A DNA stretch of 64,000 nucleotides from an uncultured Tateyamaria sp. (GTDB lineage: Bacteria > Pseudomonadota > Alphaproteobacteria > Rhodobacterales > Rhodobacteraceae): positions 1 through 64,000 of the forward strand of contig NZ_CANMBJ010000008.1 in NCBI RefSeq assembly GCF_947496075.1, in the 5' to 3' direction. Numbering within the stretch: the stretch's first letter is position 1; each line of letters starts with the position of its first letter. The translations under genes were made by a program, and so were the position numbers. This document shows, piece after piece, positions 15,427 to 39,945 of the stretch. Under the pieces are notes generated by a model. It saw nothing but the letters and a program-made list of their open reading frames with translations. It had not been told where the DNA came from and did not search any database.

Positions 15427-16098
15427 TCAGTTCATTCGGTATCCGACATTGCGCAGGGTCACGATCCGCGCACCCTCGTCGCCAATCTTGCGACGAAGAC
15501 GCCCCACATACACATCAACCACGTTGGTTAGCGGGTCAGCGTTCAGCCCCCAGACCGCGTTTAAAATCCGCTCGCGCGACAGAACGCGACCTGGATTAGT
15601 CAAAAAAAGCAGGAGCAAATCACGTTCCTTCTTTGACATTTCGATCTCTTCGCCATTGATGCAGACCTGCAAGGATTCACGGTCAAAGGTGAGTGAGCCA
15701 CTTGTGACAACTGTATCGCTGGCATCTACCGCATAGTTGGTCGCGCGACGATGAAGCGCTTCAACACGGGCAATGAGCTCATCAAAGTCAAAGGGCTTGG
15801 GCAGATAATCATCGGCACCAATTTTCAAACCCTCGACTTTCTCTTCCGGACTATCGAGTGCCGTCAGCATCAAAATCGGGGTTTTTGACTTGCGTGCGCG
15901 CAATTTGCGACACACGTCCTGCCCCTGAATGCCCGGAAGCATCAGGTCAAGCAGGATGACATCATATGTGTTGGACGCTGCGTGTTCGAGCGCTTCTTCC
16001 CCGTCAGCGGCATGGTCAACGGACCAGCCTTCGGCGGATAATCCGCGCCGAATAAAGTCTGCAACGCGGTTTTCATCTTCGACAAGAAGGATGTTCAT
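15427..16098 (-). CDS. OmpR/PhoB-type response regulator
   Basis: The receiver domain (MNILLVEDE, phospho-acceptor in VILLDLMLPG, Lys in LPKPF) is followed by a winged-helix DNA-binding domain ending in DVYVGRLRRKIG and TLRNVGYRMN. I use the ATG at 16098, preceded by GGAG, not the GTG at 16110. It lies 99 bp downstream of the kinase gene on the same strand. Regulators of this type bind direct repeats spaced about 11 bp. Such repeats occur upstream of two genes of this module (20443-20482 and 21095-21134), so it is the likely regulator of both. Confidence 0.9.
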   Translation of the reverse strand: MNILLVEDENRVADFIRRGLSAEGWSVDHAADGEEALEHAASNTYDVILLDLMLPGIQGQDVCRKLRARKSKTPILMLTALDSPEEKVEGLKIGADDYLPKPFDFDELIARVEALHRRATNYAVDASDTVVTSGSLTFDRESLQVCINGEEIEMSKKERDLLLLFLTNPGRVLSRERILNAVWGLNADPLTNVVDVYVGRLRRKIGDEGARIVTLRNVGYRMN

Positions 16099-16197
16099 AA
16101 TTGGCTCCACCCAAATTCAATTCGTGTCAGGGACTGAAACCGGCCCATGACATCAGCTATCGTTCTGTGTTGAATAATCCAAATCTCCGCTTCGTGT

Positions 16198-17781
16198 TTA
16201 GGCGGAATTGCGCGAAGTTTGGGCAGTCACTTCGCGAGGTCGGGGCTGTTTTGGCAGCGCAATGACAACCCGCAACCCACCGCCTGACCGATCCGCAAGA
16301 TCCACCTTGCCGCCATGCGCTTCGACGATGGACTTGACGACTGGAAGGCCCAAGCCGCTGCCCTCAATCCCTTGACCGGATGCATTGGATCCACGGAAGA
16401 ACCGGTTGAAGGCCCGCTCTTTCTCGGCGGGATCAAGGCCTGGGCCATCATCCTCGACCGCTATCCTATAATTCTTTGTACCATCCTCCAGTGAAACGGA
16501 AATTGACGGTCCGCCGTACCGCCGGGCGTTCTGCAAAAGGGCAAGGATAGACTGGCGTAGCCGAACAGGATCGACAGATGCCGACACCGGTTGATCGCCT
16601 TCGTTGATCTGAACCGAACCGGGGAACATCAACACCGCATCATGAATAACTTTTCTCAGATCAGTCTCGGCAAGATCGAGACGCAACTGACCCGCCTCAT
16701 GGCGCGCAACGGTCAGCATATCGTCCACGATCTGGTTCGTGTGCTTTGCAGATTCCCGGATACGGGCAAGTGTATCAGACACGTCGTCACTCAGACCGCT
16801 GGATGTACGCAGTGTAACATCAGCCTCACCCAGAATAATGGCAAGCGGTGTGCGAAGTTCGTGGCTTATGTCAGCCATCAACCGTTTTCGGTTTTCTTCA
16901 CCCAACTCCAGCTTATCGATCATCTTCTGAAGTTCGGCCGTACGCGCGGCGACCAGTTCCTCGAGCTGTGCTTTCTGTTCCGCACGGCTGGCCTCCCGTT
17001 TCGCCACAGCCTCACCCATACTGTTCAGGATGACGCCCAGTTCACGAAATTCACGGCTGCCCCCCAGCTGGACAGATCCGGAATAATCCGCATTGCGCAG
17101 TCGATTGATACTCTGTTGCAAACGAATGAGTGGCAGCCGGATCTGACCATTGAATGAAACTGCACCGACGATCAGCAAACCAATCAGCACAAAGAGCAGA
17201 CCATATACAAACCGCTCATTCCACGTGCGGAAGGCATCGGCATCTGCCAGAACCTCCTGTACTTCCTCCAACTCTTCATCGACTGCGGCCTGTATCTTGC
17301 GGTCCAGTTCAATATCGATGTCGTCATCCAGCAAGGCCGCCAAACGTTCGATCTGTAGGAAGGTTTCAACTGGATCACCCGACTCCGTCAGAGTCGCGAT
17401 GGCCGCATTGATCGACTGTATTTCCTCTTCAATTTCATTCAGAAGATCGAGTTCCTCGATCTCCTCGTCTCCAATCAATTGGATTTCCCGCCCGATGGTT
17501 TTCCGAATCTCGACAAGAGTTTTGGCAATTTTCTCACGCAGTTCCGTTTCCAGTTCACCGCCATCGCGATTGCCAATCAGAAGCGCGTCGCCATGTTGTT
17601 TGAACAACCGATAGACATCGGCCTCAAGCCGCAGGTGAAGGGCTCGAGATTCCTGAGCCAATTGTGTGCGTGCATCCCACCAGCGCGCTTTTTCCACACT
17701 GTAAAGCGTCAGGCCGGCAAATGCGCCCAAGAGTAAAACAATAACGGCGGCGTATACGCCAAAAAGGGTGGTAGAGCGCAT
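16198..17781 (-). CDS. Sensor histidine kinase with acidic periplasmic domain
   Basis: This 527-residue kinase has two membrane segments (about residues 5-28 and 190-212). Between them lies a roughly 160-residue helical sensor region very rich in Glu/Asp (for example IGDEEIEELDLLNEIEEEI and LLDDDIDIELD). Then come a HAMP region, the H-box ISHELRTPLAIILG, N-box LLQNARRYGG, and G-boxes VEDDGPGLD and GSGLGLPVVKSI. The acidic domain could bind cations, which would fit the EF-hand gene in this module. It starts 12 bp after the ABC-like gene and precedes the response regulator. Confidence 0.88.
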   Translation of the reverse strand: MRSTTLFGVYAAVIVLLLGAFAGLTLYSVEKARWWDARTQLAQESRALHLRLEADVYRLFKQHGDALLIGNRDGGELETELREKIAKTLVEIRKTIGREIQLIGDEEIEELDLLNEIEEEIQSINAAIATLTESGDPVETFLQIERLAALLDDDIDIELDRKIQAAVDEELEEVQEVLADADAFRTWNERFVYGLLFVLIGLLIVGAVSFNGQIRLPLIRLQQSINRLRNADYSGSVQLGGSREFRELGVILNSMGEAVAKREASRAEQKAQLEELVAARTAELQKMIDKLELGEENRKRLMADISHELRTPLAIILGEADVTLRTSSGLSDDVSDTLARIRESAKHTNQIVDDMLTVARHEAGQLRLDLAETDLRKVIHDAVLMFPGSVQINEGDQPVSASVDPVRLRQSILALLQNARRYGGPSISVSLEDGTKNYRIAVEDDGPGLDPAEKERAFNRFFRGSNASGQGIEGSGLGLPVVKSIVEAHGGKVDLADRSGGGLRVVIALPKQPRPREVTAQTSRNSA

Positions 17782-17793
17782 CTGATAGTCCCT

Positions 17794-19308
17794 TCAGTAC
17801 GAAGTAGCAGTGCAAGTGTTTGTTGGCTCCGCGAGTATAACGGTTGCCCGGGTCAGGTGTCGCAGCGTGTCCAGAAGCATGTCCCGGTCCGGGTCTGCGG
17901 CCCAGCGTAGAGATGAAATGATGATGACATCAGCCTGCGCAAGGACCGCGCGCGCAAGGTCCAAGCGCAACGTTTGCGCAGCGGTCAGGTTCCTTCCATT
18001 CTCTGCAAGGCGTTGATCAAGGCCGTCGGGTGCACGCAACACCTCATTCAAGTCAAATGCAGCAAGGGCTTGTTGGATCACGCCGTCCGTTGGGCGCTTT
18101 GGTGCACCAAGGGTTACGGACCTTCTCAGGCTACCTTGCAGACCGACATGCTCGTCACCGATGTAGCTGATCTTTGGCGAACGTGTTTGACTGCCAAAAC
18201 GGAGATCGACCGCGCCGTGCGTATCCAGACCGGCGATCACGCGCGCGCACAGGCGGGCATACGAGCCTCTCAAATGAGTGATCTTTCCAGCACCAGCAGA
18301 GAAACTGACAGGCTGTCCGTCTACCTGGCCTTCCAAAGTGACTGAGATCGGCTCGCTCTTGGGTTTTGACCGCCGTTTGACTGTCGGTTCGTCCAACAAC
18401 CTTTGTGCCTTTTCCCGTGCGACACGCCACGCGCAATAGCGGTCCCAAGATGCGGCAAGGTCCTGCAGCGGCAGCGCAACAATGGCGAGGACCGACATGC
18501 ATGCCGCGGCAGTTGCGGGTGCAAGACCATTCTGACCGGCCAGCCAAAGCATGAGAAGCCCGGACAATGCCGTCCCGACCTTAAGCAAGGTTTGGAGACC
18601 AGCGGTCCGCCCACGGCGAGACACCGCATCACCTTTCAAAGCGGCACCCTTCTCATCAAGGGCGCGCAGCTCCTTGTTTGTGCGTCCCATAAGATCCAGT
18701 TCGGGGGCAATCGCAATGCGTTCGATCATCGAAATAGCAATATTGGCACGACGCTTTCTCAGCTTGCGGTGTCGCTGTTCCAGATGCCAGGCTGTGATGC
18801 ACATGATCGCCAACGCAACGCCAAGGGGGACAAGCCCTGTTCCGGCAAGGGTGGGATTGAGGCTGAACAAGATCCACATGGCACCGGGCAAGACAACTAT
18901 GGCAGACAATACATCAGGCAAACCGCGTCCGAACCAAAGGCGGGCAGCAGCCAGGTCACCAACAAAGCGAAGGGACAACGCGCCAACCCGACGCTCCTCG
19001 TGACGCGCTTTCGGAAGGCGGGCGATCTGGGAATAGAGTGTCCGGCGAAGCGCAATCGCATAGCTCTGCCCCAAAGCCTCAGCACGCCTGCGTGCAAACA
19101 AATGGCACAACGCTGCAACCAGTCCGGCGACCCCTAATTCAGCAACTGTTTGCATGGGCAATGACTGCTGTGAATGAAGCGCCATGAAAGCATCCCGTGT
19201 TGCAAAAGCACCCACGGCAAGCGCGATCGCCTGAACAATGGCGCACGATATGATCAGGACCGCATCGATGACGCGGTCCTGAGTGGCAATTGAGGGCAGG
19301 GGGGTCAT
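17794..19308 (-). CDS. ABC-exporter-like membrane protein with degenerate ATPase domain
   Basis: This 504-residue protein is built like a CydC/MsbA half-exporter, with an N-terminal six-helix membrane region (to about residue 300) and a C-terminal nucleotide-binding domain. All ATPase motifs are damaged. The Walker A position reads LRGSYARLCARVIAG without the GK[S/T], the signature reads LTAAQTLRLDLARAV instead of LSGGQ, and Walker B is VIIISSLRWAADPD without Asp-Glu. It is therefore unlikely to hydrolyse ATP and may be a regulatory or scaffold protein. It overlaps the NTPase gene by 4 bp (ATGA) and precedes the kinase by 12 bp. Confidence 0.8.
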   Translation of the reverse strand: MTPLPSIATQDRVIDAVLIISCAIVQAIALAVGAFATRDAFMALHSQQSLPMQTVAELGVAGLVAALCHLFARRRAEALGQSYAIALRRTLYSQIARLPKARHEERRVGALSLRFVGDLAAARLWFGRGLPDVLSAIVVLPGAMWILFSLNPTLAGTGLVPLGVALAIMCITAWHLEQRHRKLRKRRANIAISMIERIAIAPELDLMGRTNKELRALDEKGAALKGDAVSRRGRTAGLQTLLKVGTALSGLLMLWLAGQNGLAPATAAACMSVLAIVALPLQDLAASWDRYCAWRVAREKAQRLLDEPTVKRRSKPKSEPISVTLEGQVDGQPVSFSAGAGKITHLRGSYARLCARVIAGLDTHGAVDLRFGSQTRSPKISYIGDEHVGLQGSLRRSVTLGAPKRPTDGVIQQALAAFDLNEVLRAPDGLDQRLAENGRNLTAAQTLRLDLARAVLAQADVIIISSLRWAADPDRDMLLDTLRHLTRATVILAEPTNTCTATSY

Positions 19309-20369
19309 GCCGCCACACCTTGATGGTCCCGGCGCATCAATGGTGCGACATGCAGCGCAATCGCCTCAGGCGACCAAAGATCTTCGCGTGACAGAATGGG
19401 CAAGCCGGTTACCTCAGCCGCTTCTGCGGTTGCAAGCGGAGAGCAGCTCACCATTCCCGATATTGCAAATGGCGTAAGCTGCAGGCGTTCAAGTACCATC
19501 ACGCCACCCAGTGCACTCAGCGCATCGGGGGCAGCAAATAGGATACCATCCAGACGATCGCGGATATGCGAGGCCTTCAGGATGTCACGCGTTTCCTGCT
19601 GAAACACACCGTCCGCAATTTCGACAACAATCACTTCGGCACCGCGCGCGGCTGCCGTACTGACCAGCGTGTCAAAACCCTGTTCGATCTGCTCAAGCGG
19701 CCTACGGAAGGTGGTCGCCATGCCAACGTCGGTAAAGTCGAGCGCAGGGGCACCACCATCCTCAAAACTGTTGAAGTCACCAAAGGCACCCGTACCGGTG
19801 GCTTTGACACCTGCCACCGAATACCCGGACCGCATAAGCCCATGGGCGAGGCTTGAGGCGGCGGTGGTCTTACCCGAGTTCATCGAGGCACCGAAAACCC
19901 CAATCACCGTCACGCGGTCATTGGCTGGCAGAGGCGGCAGTGCATAGTCCGCGACATTCATCACACGACCGTGTTCGCCGGTTAAAAGACCCAAAGGCTT
20001 CAACCGGGTGGCATCGTCCATAAAGTCATGCGCTGCATCAATGCGCCCGGCAACACCGCCGCCCGCAACCAAGTCGATCAGATCGTCGTCGATGATGGCA
20101 CTCGCCAGGAACTGATCAGGCGCATAACGGTCACCCAGACACACGACGACCAGATCTCCGGGATAGCTTAGCGAAACACGTCGCTCTGCCAGTTGCATTT
20201 TTTTGTGTTGGCCGATTTCGACGATTTCGCACAGCATCAGATCACCGGCCTTGGCTGTCTGAAAACTGACGGACAGACCCCGGACGTCGCTGCGATCAAC
20301 GCGCCGTGTTGTGAACGCCCATTTCGCGATCTCGCAGAGGGCGGGGGTCAAAGGATAAATCTTGGTCAT
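19305..20369 (-). CDS. P-loop NTPase, DUF1611/MobB-like, first gene of the sensor operon
   Basis: This 354-residue protein contains a clear P-loop, GVFGASMNSGKTTAASSLA, near residue 160. It is followed by GVKATGTGAFGDF and VIVVEIADGVF, which resemble the SIMIBI-type P-loop enzymes (DUF1611, MobB and dethiobiotin-synthetase relatives). The first 140 residues look like a separate beta-rich domain. I cannot assign a substrate. It is the first gene of the four-gene operon NTPase, ABC-like, kinase, regulator. It follows a GGAG site and has a triple ATGAAC operator 74 bp upstream. Confidence 0.75.
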   Translation of the reverse strand: MTKIYPLTPALCEIAKWAFTTRRVDRSDVRGLSVSFQTAKAGDLMLCEIVEIGQHKKMQLAERRVSLSYPGDLVVVCLGDRYAPDQFLASAIIDDDLIDLVAGGGVAGRIDAAHDFMDDATRLKPLGLLTGEHGRVMNVADYALPPLPANDRVTVIGVFGASMNSGKTTAASSLAHGLMRSGYSVAGVKATGTGAFGDFNSFEDGGAPALDFTDVGMATTFRRPLEQIEQGFDTLVSTAAARGAEVIVVEIADGVFQQETRDILKASHIRDRLDGILFAAPDALSALGGVMVLERLQLTPFAISGMVSCSPLATAEAAEVTGLPILSREDLWSPEAIALHVAPLMRRDHQGVAA

Positions 20370-20442
20370 TGGTTTGCTCCGTAGTGTAGCGTTTGAATGA
20401 CCTTTGTTTCGCCGACCCGGATGATGGCTGTCCGGCAGACAA

Positions 20443-20482
20443 ATGAACCGCTGCCGGAAATGTGGATGAACGCAAGATGAAC
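20443..20482 (-). promoter_or_regulatory. Triple ATGAAC operator upstream of the NTPase operon
   Basis: ATGAAC occurs at 20443, 20466 and 20477 (GTTCAT on the coding strand), with spacings of 23 and 11 bp. The distal two form the tandem GATGAACG-N3-GATGAACG. The proximal site is 74 bp from the NTPase start. The same three-site arrangement is found upstream of the EF-hand gene. Confidence 0.65.
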
Positions 20483-20536
20483 GGTGGCGTTCACCGGATC
20501 AGCGTATCCGCAATCAATGGCTGGGGGATTCTCACC

Positions 20537-21025
20537 CTAGTCATCATTGTCACCATCGTCTCCACCTCCATCATCACCGCCGCCGTCTCCACCTCCTCCG
20601 TCGCTGCCGCTGCCATTGTCATCATTATCGTCTCTTTCATCCCGATCATCATCGTCGTCGTCATCATCGTTGTCGTCGGCATCCGAACCACGGCGGCTTG
20701 TTCCCTCTTCGGGTTCGTCGCGCGCGCCTCTGCGAATCTCACCAATGGTGATTCTGTTGTCACCGTTGTGGTCATTGGTTCGCATCAGCTGTCTGGCGCC
20801 GTCGCGCCCAAAGGCCGCCACCAATTCATCAAAGCTGAGCATTCCGTCGGAATTAGTGTCCACAGATCGGAAACTCGCTGATTGACAAAGTGCCGCCGAA
20901 GACGATGCGAAACTGACAACAAGCGCAAAGAGCAGGCTCTTTGGAAGCCTGCGCGGGCGAACCGATACGTCCGCCGCAGCAATGGCGTGACCGCCATCTG
21001 CGTGCTTGCTGGTTCTGTACACCAT
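20537..21025 (-). CDS. Secreted EF-hand protein with Asp/Gly-rich tail
   Basis: A signal-like hydrophobic segment (RRLPKSLLFALVVSFASSS) is followed by two EF-hand loops, DTNSDGMLSFDE and DHNGDNRITIGE, both with Asp/Asn at the calcium-ligand positions. The last 50 or so residues are almost only Asp, Gly, Asn, Glu and Ser. The protein is presumably exported and binds Ca2+. Upstream in-frame codons exist to 21139, but the operator repeats at 21095-21134 would lie inside them, so I prefer the ATG at 21025, with no strong ribosome site. It is transcribed towards the NTPase operon, with 167 bp between. Confidence 0.7.
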   Translation of the reverse strand: MVYRTSKHADGGHAIAAADVSVRPRRLPKSLLFALVVSFASSSAALCQSASFRSVDTNSDGMLSFDELVAAFGRDGARQLMRTNDHNGDNRITIGEIRRGARDEPEEGTSRRGSDADDNDDDDDDDDRDERDDNDDNGSGSDGGGGDGGGDDGGGDDGDNDD

Positions 21026-21094
21026 TCTATGCCCGATACTACCCGCGTTACATGCAGGGTATGCCCCAAAAGCAGTAGTAAGTTGCATGTGTGG

Positions 21095-21134
21095 ATGAAC
21101 GTTAGCCACTACCAAAGATGAACGCCAGATGAAC
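21095..21134 (-). promoter_or_regulatory. Triple ATGAAC operator upstream of the EF-hand gene
   Basis: ATGAAC occurs at 21095, 21118 and 21129, with spacings of 23 and 11 bp, identical to 20443-20482. The proximal site lies 70 bp from the chosen start. On the coding strand a possible -10 (TACTAC) begins about 14 bases after the proximal site. Confidence 0.65.
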
Positions 21135-21233: not shown

Positions 21234-21593
21234 TTACAGGCTGTTTTTCACAATCCGTTGCAGGATGTGCGACCGATGGTTCTGACCACCAAAAAAGATA
21301 CCCAGAACGCGCACCTCCATCCGTTCCGCGTCCGAAATAAAGTAGAAAACGGCGCTATCCTTGGTCACATGCCGCAGCCCATCCATGATCTGCGGCACCA
21401 GCGTGCCCTGGAACGGAACATCGCCCAGACCGGCTAGTGCATCCTCGACACCGCGCACGCGACTGGCCGCATGATTTAAAGCATCATCAATCGGCTCGCC
21501 AAGATCGCGGTATGATTGGAACAGATGATCAAAGATGACTTCGATATCCGCGTCACAAGCTGCGCTGCGGAGTACCTTAAACCCTGTGTGCAC
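21234..21593 (-). CDS. ParE/RelE-superfamily toxin
   Basis: This 119-residue protein begins with KVLRSAACDADIEVIFDHLF, the first helix of ParE-type toxins, and ends with the strand region VFYFISDAERMEVRVLGIFFGGQ, typical of the fold. ParE toxins poison gyrase and RelE toxins cut mRNA; the sequence alone does not decide which. It overlaps the antitoxin gene by 17 bp. Near the Rep module (12 kb away) such a pair could serve plasmid maintenance, though many are chromosomal. Confidence 0.8.
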   Translation of the reverse strand: MHTGFKVLRSAACDADIEVIFDHLFQSYRDLGEPIDDALNHAASRVRGVEDALAGLGDVPFQGTLVPQIMDGLRHVTKDSAVFYFISDAERMEVRVLGIFFGGQNHRSHILQRIVKNSL

Positions 21594-21846
21594 GAGTTTT
21601 GGCCGCGATCATACCTTCGGTTCGGGCGCGTCCCTCATCCGCCGCCACAAATGGGCCTGCCGCCCGCTCGGCGAAAAAGGCCTGTAGCGCGGCCAACTCT
21701 GCCGCTTCACGCTCTTTCTCGGACCGGACGAGTTCAAGACCGCGCTGCACAACCGCGCTAACGCTGGCATATTGCCCATCCGCAACCAATCGGCGGGTAA
21801 ACTCATCCTGTTGATCCGTGATCGATACAGAGGCTTTCACAGACAT
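21577..21846 (-). CDS. ParD-like antitoxin
   Basis: This 89-residue protein has an N-terminal ribbon-helix-helix (VSITDQQDEFTRRLVADGQY, then ASVSAVVQRGLELV) and a helical, charged C-terminus expected to wrap the toxin. Antitoxin-first order and overlap with the toxin are classical for type II systems. It probably represses its own promoter through the palindrome at 21863-21873. Confidence 0.85.
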   Translation of the reverse strand: MSVKASVSITDQQDEFTRRLVADGQYASVSAVVQRGLELVRSEKEREAAELAALQAFFAERAAGPFVAADEGRARTEGMIAAKTRAHRV

Positions 21847-39459: not shown

Positions 39460-39945
39460 TCAGTGACCGTGATCCGTATCCCCGTGGACCGCGAATTGAT
39501 CCAGCCCGGCGTCTTGCGGTTGAATTGTCCGGAACGCTTCGCGCACACCCGCTTCCGTCAGCTCACGTGCGACCGTCAGCAGCGTGTTGGGGTCATGGTC
39601 CTCGCAGAGATCAATCATCTGCGCCAGTTCCTCGGTCGCGACGGGTTGCGCCGCCTCAACGGATGGGGCACCGTAATATGTCACGAAGTGTTGGGCAAGC
39701 AGGGCGGTCAGCGTTTCCAGCTCTGCCTGTTCCAGCTGGGTGACGGCAACAAAGGTCACACGCCCCCCGGTTTCCAGCCCGAACCACCCGTTGGCAAAAG
39801 CCTGGCGCGCCTTGCCGGTCAGGTCGCTCTCGCCCCAGTTCGAAAACTCGAACCCACCCGAGATGCACCATTCGCCCGTGCGGGCAGGGGAGGCGAAAAC
39901 GTTCATATCGCTTTCGTCGAAATGGATCGCGCGGGCGAGTTTCAT
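39460..39945 (-). CDS. DUF6505-like protein of the formate dehydrogenase locus
   Basis: This 161-residue soluble protein begins MKLARAIHFDESDMNVFASP and has GEWCISGGFEFSNW, features I associate with the DUF6505 proteins found in alphaproteobacterial formate-dehydrogenase clusters. No catalytic motif is apparent. It is the last of four minus-strand genes linked by 3-4 bp overlaps or gaps (DUF6494, ApbC, ligase-like, DUF6505). Its function is unknown; a role in enzyme assembly is inferred from context only. Confidence 0.65.
   Translation of the reverse strand: MKLARAIHFDESDMNVFASPARTGEWCISGGFEFSNWGESDLTGKARQAFANGWFGLETGGRVTFVAVTQLEQAELETLTALLAQHFVTYYGAPSVEAAQPVATEELAQMIDLCEDHDPNTLLTVARELTEAGVREAFRTIQPQDAGLDQFAVHGDTDHGH

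Follow-up and report, generated by a model that had tools for sequence, protein, structure and literature searches.

In a 64,000-nt stretch of the genome of an uncultured Tateyamaria sp. (Rhodobacteraceae), referred to here as the window, the hexamer GTTCAT stands three times before each of two neighbouring genes, which raises the question of whether these repeats are regulatory sites and, if so, which protein reads them. Judging from sequence comparison, we consider it very probable that both arrays are operators of the OmpR/PhoB-family response regulator (RR) encoded in the same module, and that the phosphorylated RR would activate through them its own operon and the gene of an EF-hand protein.

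The two arrays and the genes behind them

All features lie on the minus strand (Table 1), where the EF-hand gene is followed by an operon-like run encoding the P-loop protein, the ABC-exporter-like protein, the sensor histidine kinase (HK) and the RR. The EF-hand gene is probably a transcription unit of its own; the other four, of which the P-loop and ABC-exporter-like genes overlap by 4 bp, we infer to form one operon.

Table 1. Positions in the window of the two arrays and the genes of the module.
Feature	Position	Strand	Remarks
Putative operator of the EF-hand gene	21095..21134	-	GTTCAT at 21134-21129, 21123-21118 and 21100-21095
EF-hand protein	20537..21025	-	Hydrophobic N-terminal stretch, Asp-rich tail
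Putative operator of the P-loop/ABC/HK/RR operon	20443..20482	-	GTTCAT at 20482-20477, 20471-20466 and 20448-20443
Weaker fourth half-site, CATCAT, in the operon promoter	20421..20426	-	22 bp past the third; nTCA kept in relatives
P-loop protein, first gene of the putative operon	19305..20369	-	No Pfam family at gathering score
ABC-exporter-like protein	17794..19308	-	Walker A motif lost
Sensor histidine kinase	16198..17781	-	HisKA and HATPase score above cut-off, HAMP slightly under it
OmpR/PhoB-family RR, proposed ligand of both operators	15427..16110	-	

Both arrays read GTTCAT-N5-GTTCAT-N17-GTTCAT, with unit spacings of 11 and then 23 bp. GTTCAT is co-directional with both target genes, ATGAAC being the same element on the opposite strand, and the arrays begin 109 bp (EF-hand gene) and 113 bp (P-loop gene) 5' of the start codon. 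The first-pass annotation had listed six ATGAAC sites in two sets, each spaced by 23 and 11 bp, at 74 and 70 bp from the following starts; all six lie where they had been placed, both spacings recur in either set, and the distances agree with starts at 20369 and 21025.

As a single hexamer, ATGAAC is not over-represented in the window (39 observed, 33 expected); with up to three mismatches allowed, the three-site pattern is found there at 2 places, against 0.02 expected. Far from being common outside promoters, the full array GTTCAT-11-GTTCAT-23-GTTCAT has just two exact copies in the 4.94-Mb genome, both of them here. A slightly looser pattern, with the first base of the third site free and up to three mismatches allowed, gave eight places in the genome (the two operators with no mismatch, one place with two and five with three), and its reversed control gave none. 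The place with two mismatches (C4:940706) overlaps the start of a minus-strand ORF and was dropped.

The RR matches PF00072 at 106.4 bits (cut-off 30.2) and PF00486 at 87.3 bits (cut-off 26.2), the domain composition of the OmpR/PhoB family, and the direct repeats of 11-bp period upstream of the targets are of the kind expected at operators of that family. The RR falls under the cut-off of all 25 NCBIfam models listed, out of 106 matched: the best of them, CopR/CzcR/SilR (TIGR01387), scores 202.7 bits (cut-off 279.2), and the PhoB equivalog (TIGR02154) scores 188.3 bits (cut-off 296.2).

In its partners the module is less ordinary. Walker A is absent also from 25 of the 27 other compared ABC copies that stand with the P-loop gene and/or HK/RR, the two exceptions (L087 and L091) retaining a GSGKS-like stretch. 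The motif GK[S] is retained in ten Roseobacter-type copies (L093, L095-L099, L101, L102, L104 and L105) and, among the copies at loci without an RR, in L028-L031, with L027 lacking it. The N-terminal half of the kinase has acidic stretches. Upstream of the EF-hand operator, at 21234-21846, lie two overlapping genes, one for a ParD-like antitoxin, which scores slightly over the PF03693 cut-off, and its partner; among the compared loci, only those of G000, G012 and G002 match the pair clearly.

Conservation, spacing and phasing

Of 121 genomes, seven show this array plan in front of both genes. In both promoters of the seven, half-sites 1 and 2 are closely kept, the third is somewhat variable and the intervening sequence varies. 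Because seven genomes carry the same plan before the same two genes, the array, as judged by this conservation, is a real cis-element. Without mismatches, NTTCAT-N5-GTTCAT-N18-TTCAT occurs in 7 of the 121 genomes, at 12 places, every one at this locus; allowing one mismatch adds a place at the locus in G010 and three places away from it (G075, G033 and G016), the reversed pattern giving two. As an explanation, chance recurrence or recent duplication of one promoter is practically nil: GTTCAT is also the complement of ATG-AAC start codons, but the expected number in the window is the small one given above and the array is conserved across genera, in line with the earlier view that chance recurrence is improbable. 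By eye, moreover, little similarity is seen between the two regions outside the half-sites and adjoining bases, which speaks against duplication.

Spacing was assessed without prior assumptions by counting pairs of identical 5-mers in the 200-bp regions 5' of the P-loop gene (35 non-redundant regions of 37). The direct repeat ranked first is TTCAT at 11 bp, present in 30 of the 35, followed by TTCAT at 34, 23, 33 and 22 bp in 19, 18, 11 and 11 regions; in 100 mononucleotide shuffles, the largest count for any 5-mer pair was 2. As measured on the best match, the second and third half-sites are 22 or 23 bp apart in 35 of 36 operon promoters, and the same holds for 18 of 18 EF-hand-gene promoters taken to have the site, where some sites keep 4 of 6 bases only. 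The geometry that had been called identical is therefore so in the two window arrays and not as a rule, the second spacing being 22 or 23 bp across genera. Likewise, the three-site description fits the EF-hand promoter, and the operon promoter adds a weaker fourth half-site 22 bp past the third, with 95% conservation at each TCA column across the 20 operon promoters whose spacing is 23 bp; the EF-hand promoter is without this conserved fourth site. Arrays with 22 or 23 bp and with three or four half-sites form a natural series for how such regulators read spacing.

The phasing also bears on whether the repeats could be sigma-factor elements, with ATGAAC approximating an ECF -35 box and the transcripts running the other way. 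TGAAC does resemble ECF -35 elements, but a two-box promoter is a poor fit because the three or four copies are phased, the GTTCAT orientation is kept and the distance to the downstream operon gene is nearly fixed; we regard such a promoter as extremely improbable. Core promoter elements were looked for by eye and could not be fixed.

Association of the element with the regulator

With up to 24 candidates per genome scored, the RR (E ≤ 1e-70) is found in 6 of the 7 array genomes and in 0 of the 114 others; with every candidate scored, it is present in 5 of the 20 genomes of the genus. In G002, both arrays and the EF-hand gene are kept, the P-loop gene breaks after about residue 208 and is followed by unrelated sequence for 950 bp to the contig end (L026:5673-6622), and no RR was found in the assembly; the operon may have been lost or the assembly may be at fault.

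To follow the element further, an 18-base matrix was built from 14 sites (seven genomes, two promoters each) and scanned on both strands of the loci around the best 80 of 92 RR relatives. In the real sequence, 79 positions reach at least 16 bits, training loci included; in the reversed control, 0 of 2,281,402 positions do. With four loci of the training genomes (L065, L071, L073 and L075) omitted, a match of at least 16 bits is present at 14/16 loci with an RR identity of at least 80%, 7/8 at 65-79%, 14/24 at 55-64% and 5/28 below 55%, and matches before a module gene number 14, 7, 11 and 1 in the same bands. Where a match was assigned to the P-loop gene, it always begins 110-119 bp 5' of that gene. 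Each of the three misses at 65% or above (L066, L070 and L089) starts within the kinase or ABC gene and includes no promoter region. Among the 10 of 24 loci without such a match in the 55-64% band, L094 and L097 have weaker sites, L103, L108 and L112 stop at contig ends, and L106, L107, L110, L111 and L115 have upstream sequence and a similar helix region with no match of at least 16 bits. Three more loci of this band (L109, L113 and L114) do have matches, none of them before a module gene.

The scan also gave matches that stand apart. Three loci below 55% identity (L117, L120 and L131) have matrix matches, that of L131 lying 62 bp 5' of its RR gene. Extra matches occur at L067:2758 (-), with 20.1 bits before a citrate/sulphate-symporter-like gene, and at L072:9168 (-), with 25.5 bits and no clear target, and the window has a further single match at 39901 (+), with 17.1 bits.

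Loci that lack the regulator give a different picture. Those with P-loop/ABC relatives (43-48% identity) and no HK/RR in 12 kb (L027-L031) have no comparable site, at most 13.5 bits, and those with only a P-loop relative (L032 and L033) have no match above 13.5 bits. G001 has both kinds of locus, and its operators occur only at the one with the regulator. Across the compared loci, the array thus tends to go with the RR rather than with the target gene. At the Celeribacter locus L116, where tblastn over 16.7 kb detected neither the EF-hand nor the P-loop gene, the element lies 100 bp 5' of the kinase gene of an HK-RR pair; in Loktanella (L094), where the kinase/regulator genes stand apart from the P-loop/ABC genes, each unit has a weak copy in front of it (10.1 and 15.7 bits). 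In Hydrogenophaga (L118, RR 51%), a betaproteobacterium, and Paracoccus (L124, RR 47%), the element stands before a neighbouring carbonic-anhydrase-like gene (L118:5660-6325 and L124:8717-9364; 305 and 250 bits against the NCBI model of metal-independent carbonic anhydrase, cut-off 350). L072 has a further copy (16.3 bits) before a DUF4956-VTC pair, weaker in L069 and L074 (12.0).

Two arrangements were seen alongside. The DUF4956 and VTC-domain pair (L072:1391-2793, L069 and L074) is divergent beside the EF-hand gene. TTCAT-like 11-bp repeats occur at several Roseobacter-type loci (near 12015 in L093; near 12030-12365 in L095-L099, L101, L102, L104 and L105), where they lie near an aspartyl/asparaginyl-hydroxylase-like gene, the gene having been identified in L102.

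The recognition-helix region DP[LM]TN[VI]VDVY is common to the RRs that have an operator in front of a module gene (L131 unaligned) and to those of L118 and L124; it is also present in some RRs without an operator (L110 and L115) and absent from the RRs of L117 and L120, whose matches lie elsewhere. The proposal of the first-pass annotation that the module's own OmpR-type regulator reads the 11-bp direct repeat thus has good support from comparative genomics, both from this shared helix region and from the presence of the element beside this RR family across genera, before different genes. Since the repeats recur beside RR relatives in many bacteria, they are most likely the binding places of this RR.

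A different OmpR-family regulator might instead bind the arrays, above all CenR, which would place the module under envelope-stress control. CenR reads the core TGA-N8-TGA (PMC9275681), whose complement, TCA-N8-TCA, is contained in GTTCAT-N5-GTTCAT, and G002 has the arrays with no module RR found. The core is, however, read against the genes in these arrays, with TTCAT co-directional, whereas CenR sites run in the direction of the gene in 28 of 31 cases and have varied units (PMC9275681). Furthermore, every genome with a mismatch-free array has the module at least in part, and in Hydrogenophaga, too, the element stands beside an RR relative. We consider control by CenR or another such regulator very unlikely and retain the module RR as the proposed ligand.

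Further targets of the RR were sought among the six exact GTTCAT-N5-GTTCAT pairs of the genome, two of which are the operators; the reversed pair has 0 occurrences, and the looser pair with one mismatch has 38 places in six genomes. A subtilase gene (G000 C5:392547) is preceded, 136 bp upstream, by a 0/11/22 array (GTTCAT, GTTCAT, CTTCAG), and its relative in G001 (79% identical) by ATTCAT, ATTCAC and CGTCAT 137 bp upstream (15.8 bits), which makes it a candidate third member of the regulon in this genome. The candidate rests on two promoters because the subtilase was matched in just 3 of 10 genomes, G041 giving only partial, more distant matches. A pair also lies 100 bp upstream of gltA (L002 1501-1517; G000 C2:965685). 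Among six genomes with the module region, it is strong in G000, G012 and G002 (20.4 bits), weaker in G010 (15.1) and G001 (12.6), and decayed in G013 (10.1 bits); among four genomes without the RR, G003 has it (18.0 bits) and G005, G008 and G011 do not. This pattern is confounded by relatedness and gltA was not counted as a target; because the pair is strong in G003 without the module, a GTTCAT pair is not necessarily a site of this regulator. Of the remaining pairs, that on C1 overlaps a probable gene start and was treated as chance, and that on C6 has no clear target. The VTC gene is not seen as a target here because it has no match in G000 and is matched in 1 of 10 genomes (G010), where no site exceeds 11.3 bits on that strand.

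Proposed mode of action and known systems

Based on these observations, we infer binding by the RR, a tandem mode of binding and an activating effect. In the proposed scheme, the kinase would sense a signal and the RR would become phosphorylated; phosphorylated RR would then bind head-to-tail on the two GTTCAT half-sites 11 bp apart, where a dimer is expected because the OmpR/PhoB family uses 11-nt direct units and tandem binding (PMC4415409, PMC4832192). Further RR subunits would sit on the half-sites 22-23 bp away, about two helical turns, and the weaker fourth site of the operon promoter would be occupied as well. Activation of the P-loop/ABC-like/kinase/regulator operon would amount to positive autoregulation, because the operon behind one array apparently includes the RR gene, and the same RR would activate the EF-hand gene.

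The RR might also repress through the arrays, or activate one promoter and repress the other, since the sign of regulation is unreadable from sequence; the missing fourth site of the EF-hand promoter fits a mixed or repressing role. On the other side, the half-sites start about 57-113 bp 5' of the start codon of the first operon gene, a position compatible with one upstream of the core promoter, as at activated CenR targets (PMC9275681). Repression at one or both promoters appears somewhat unlikely, and activation the likelier sign.

Our guess at the signal is a divalent cation, because the kinase has acidic stretches in its N-terminal half and a proposed target is an EF-hand, Asp-rich protein. 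The Rhodobacteraceae are largely marine. A broader reading, which is speculative and which we regard as quite unlikely, is that an unnamed two-component system, spread over many Rhodobacteraceae with relatives outside them, senses a condition at the cell surface, either a divalent cation or carbonate chemistry, and that its targets include acidic proteins of the calcium-binding type, with the ABC-like protein without an ATP site as the sensory partner of the kinase. Under the same doubtful reading, the controlled proteins would be the EF-hand/poly-Asp protein and the subtilase and, in relatives, the VTC/DUF4956 pair and the carbonic-anhydrase-like protein.

The element is a conserved operator of an ordinary kind with unusual partner genes, most likely belonging to a two-component system hitherto uncharacterised; no description of the system was found in the literature searched, most subscription papers lying outside that search. 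An RR family for which no description was found is thereby assigned a defined, testable predicted DNA site, together with a few target promoters. Knowledge of that site makes the regulon predictable genome by genome, and the candidate targets (the EF-hand protein, the subtilase and, in relatives, the carbonic-anhydrase-like protein) hint at the signal.

Several characterised systems invite comparison. The heavy-metal regulators CopR/CzcR/SilR provide the best NCBIfam model for the RR, yet it lies below their cut-off and no metal gene was recognised in the module. Among solved structures, RegX3 (2oqr) is the best match, but the helix region reads TKTLDVHVKRLRSKI, not TNVVDVYVGRLRRKI. CenR of Rhodobacter sphaeroides is an OmpR-family RR, reported to be conserved among alphaproteobacteria, with a TGA-N8-TGA direct repeat, its units being mostly T[GC][AG]C and TGA and some sites having the other orientation; it shares with the present case the family, the TGA/TCA direct-repeat core and an alphaproteobacterial host, and differs in that its core lies mostly in the opposite orientation relative to the gene and in its other targets (PMC9275681). 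PhoP of M. tuberculosis, a solved relative, binds 7-bp motifs with a 4-bp spacer as a tandem dimer with strict spacing, and its affinity is higher for three or four motifs; the repeat plan is alike, whereas its motif, TCACAGC, and its helix region differ (PMC4832192).

Finally, the PHO box read by PhoB-PhoP regulators has seven well conserved bases per 11-nt unit, tandem head-to-tail binding, and simple as well as complex arrays, with units such as CTGTCAT in E. coli and GTTCACC in S. coelicolor (PMC4415409). Unlike PhoB-PhoP, the RR described here falls under the PhoB model cut-off and its module has no recognised phosphate gene; like the PHO box, its proposed operators are direct repeats of 11-nt units, in which GTTCATC comes close to GTTCACC (PMC4415409).
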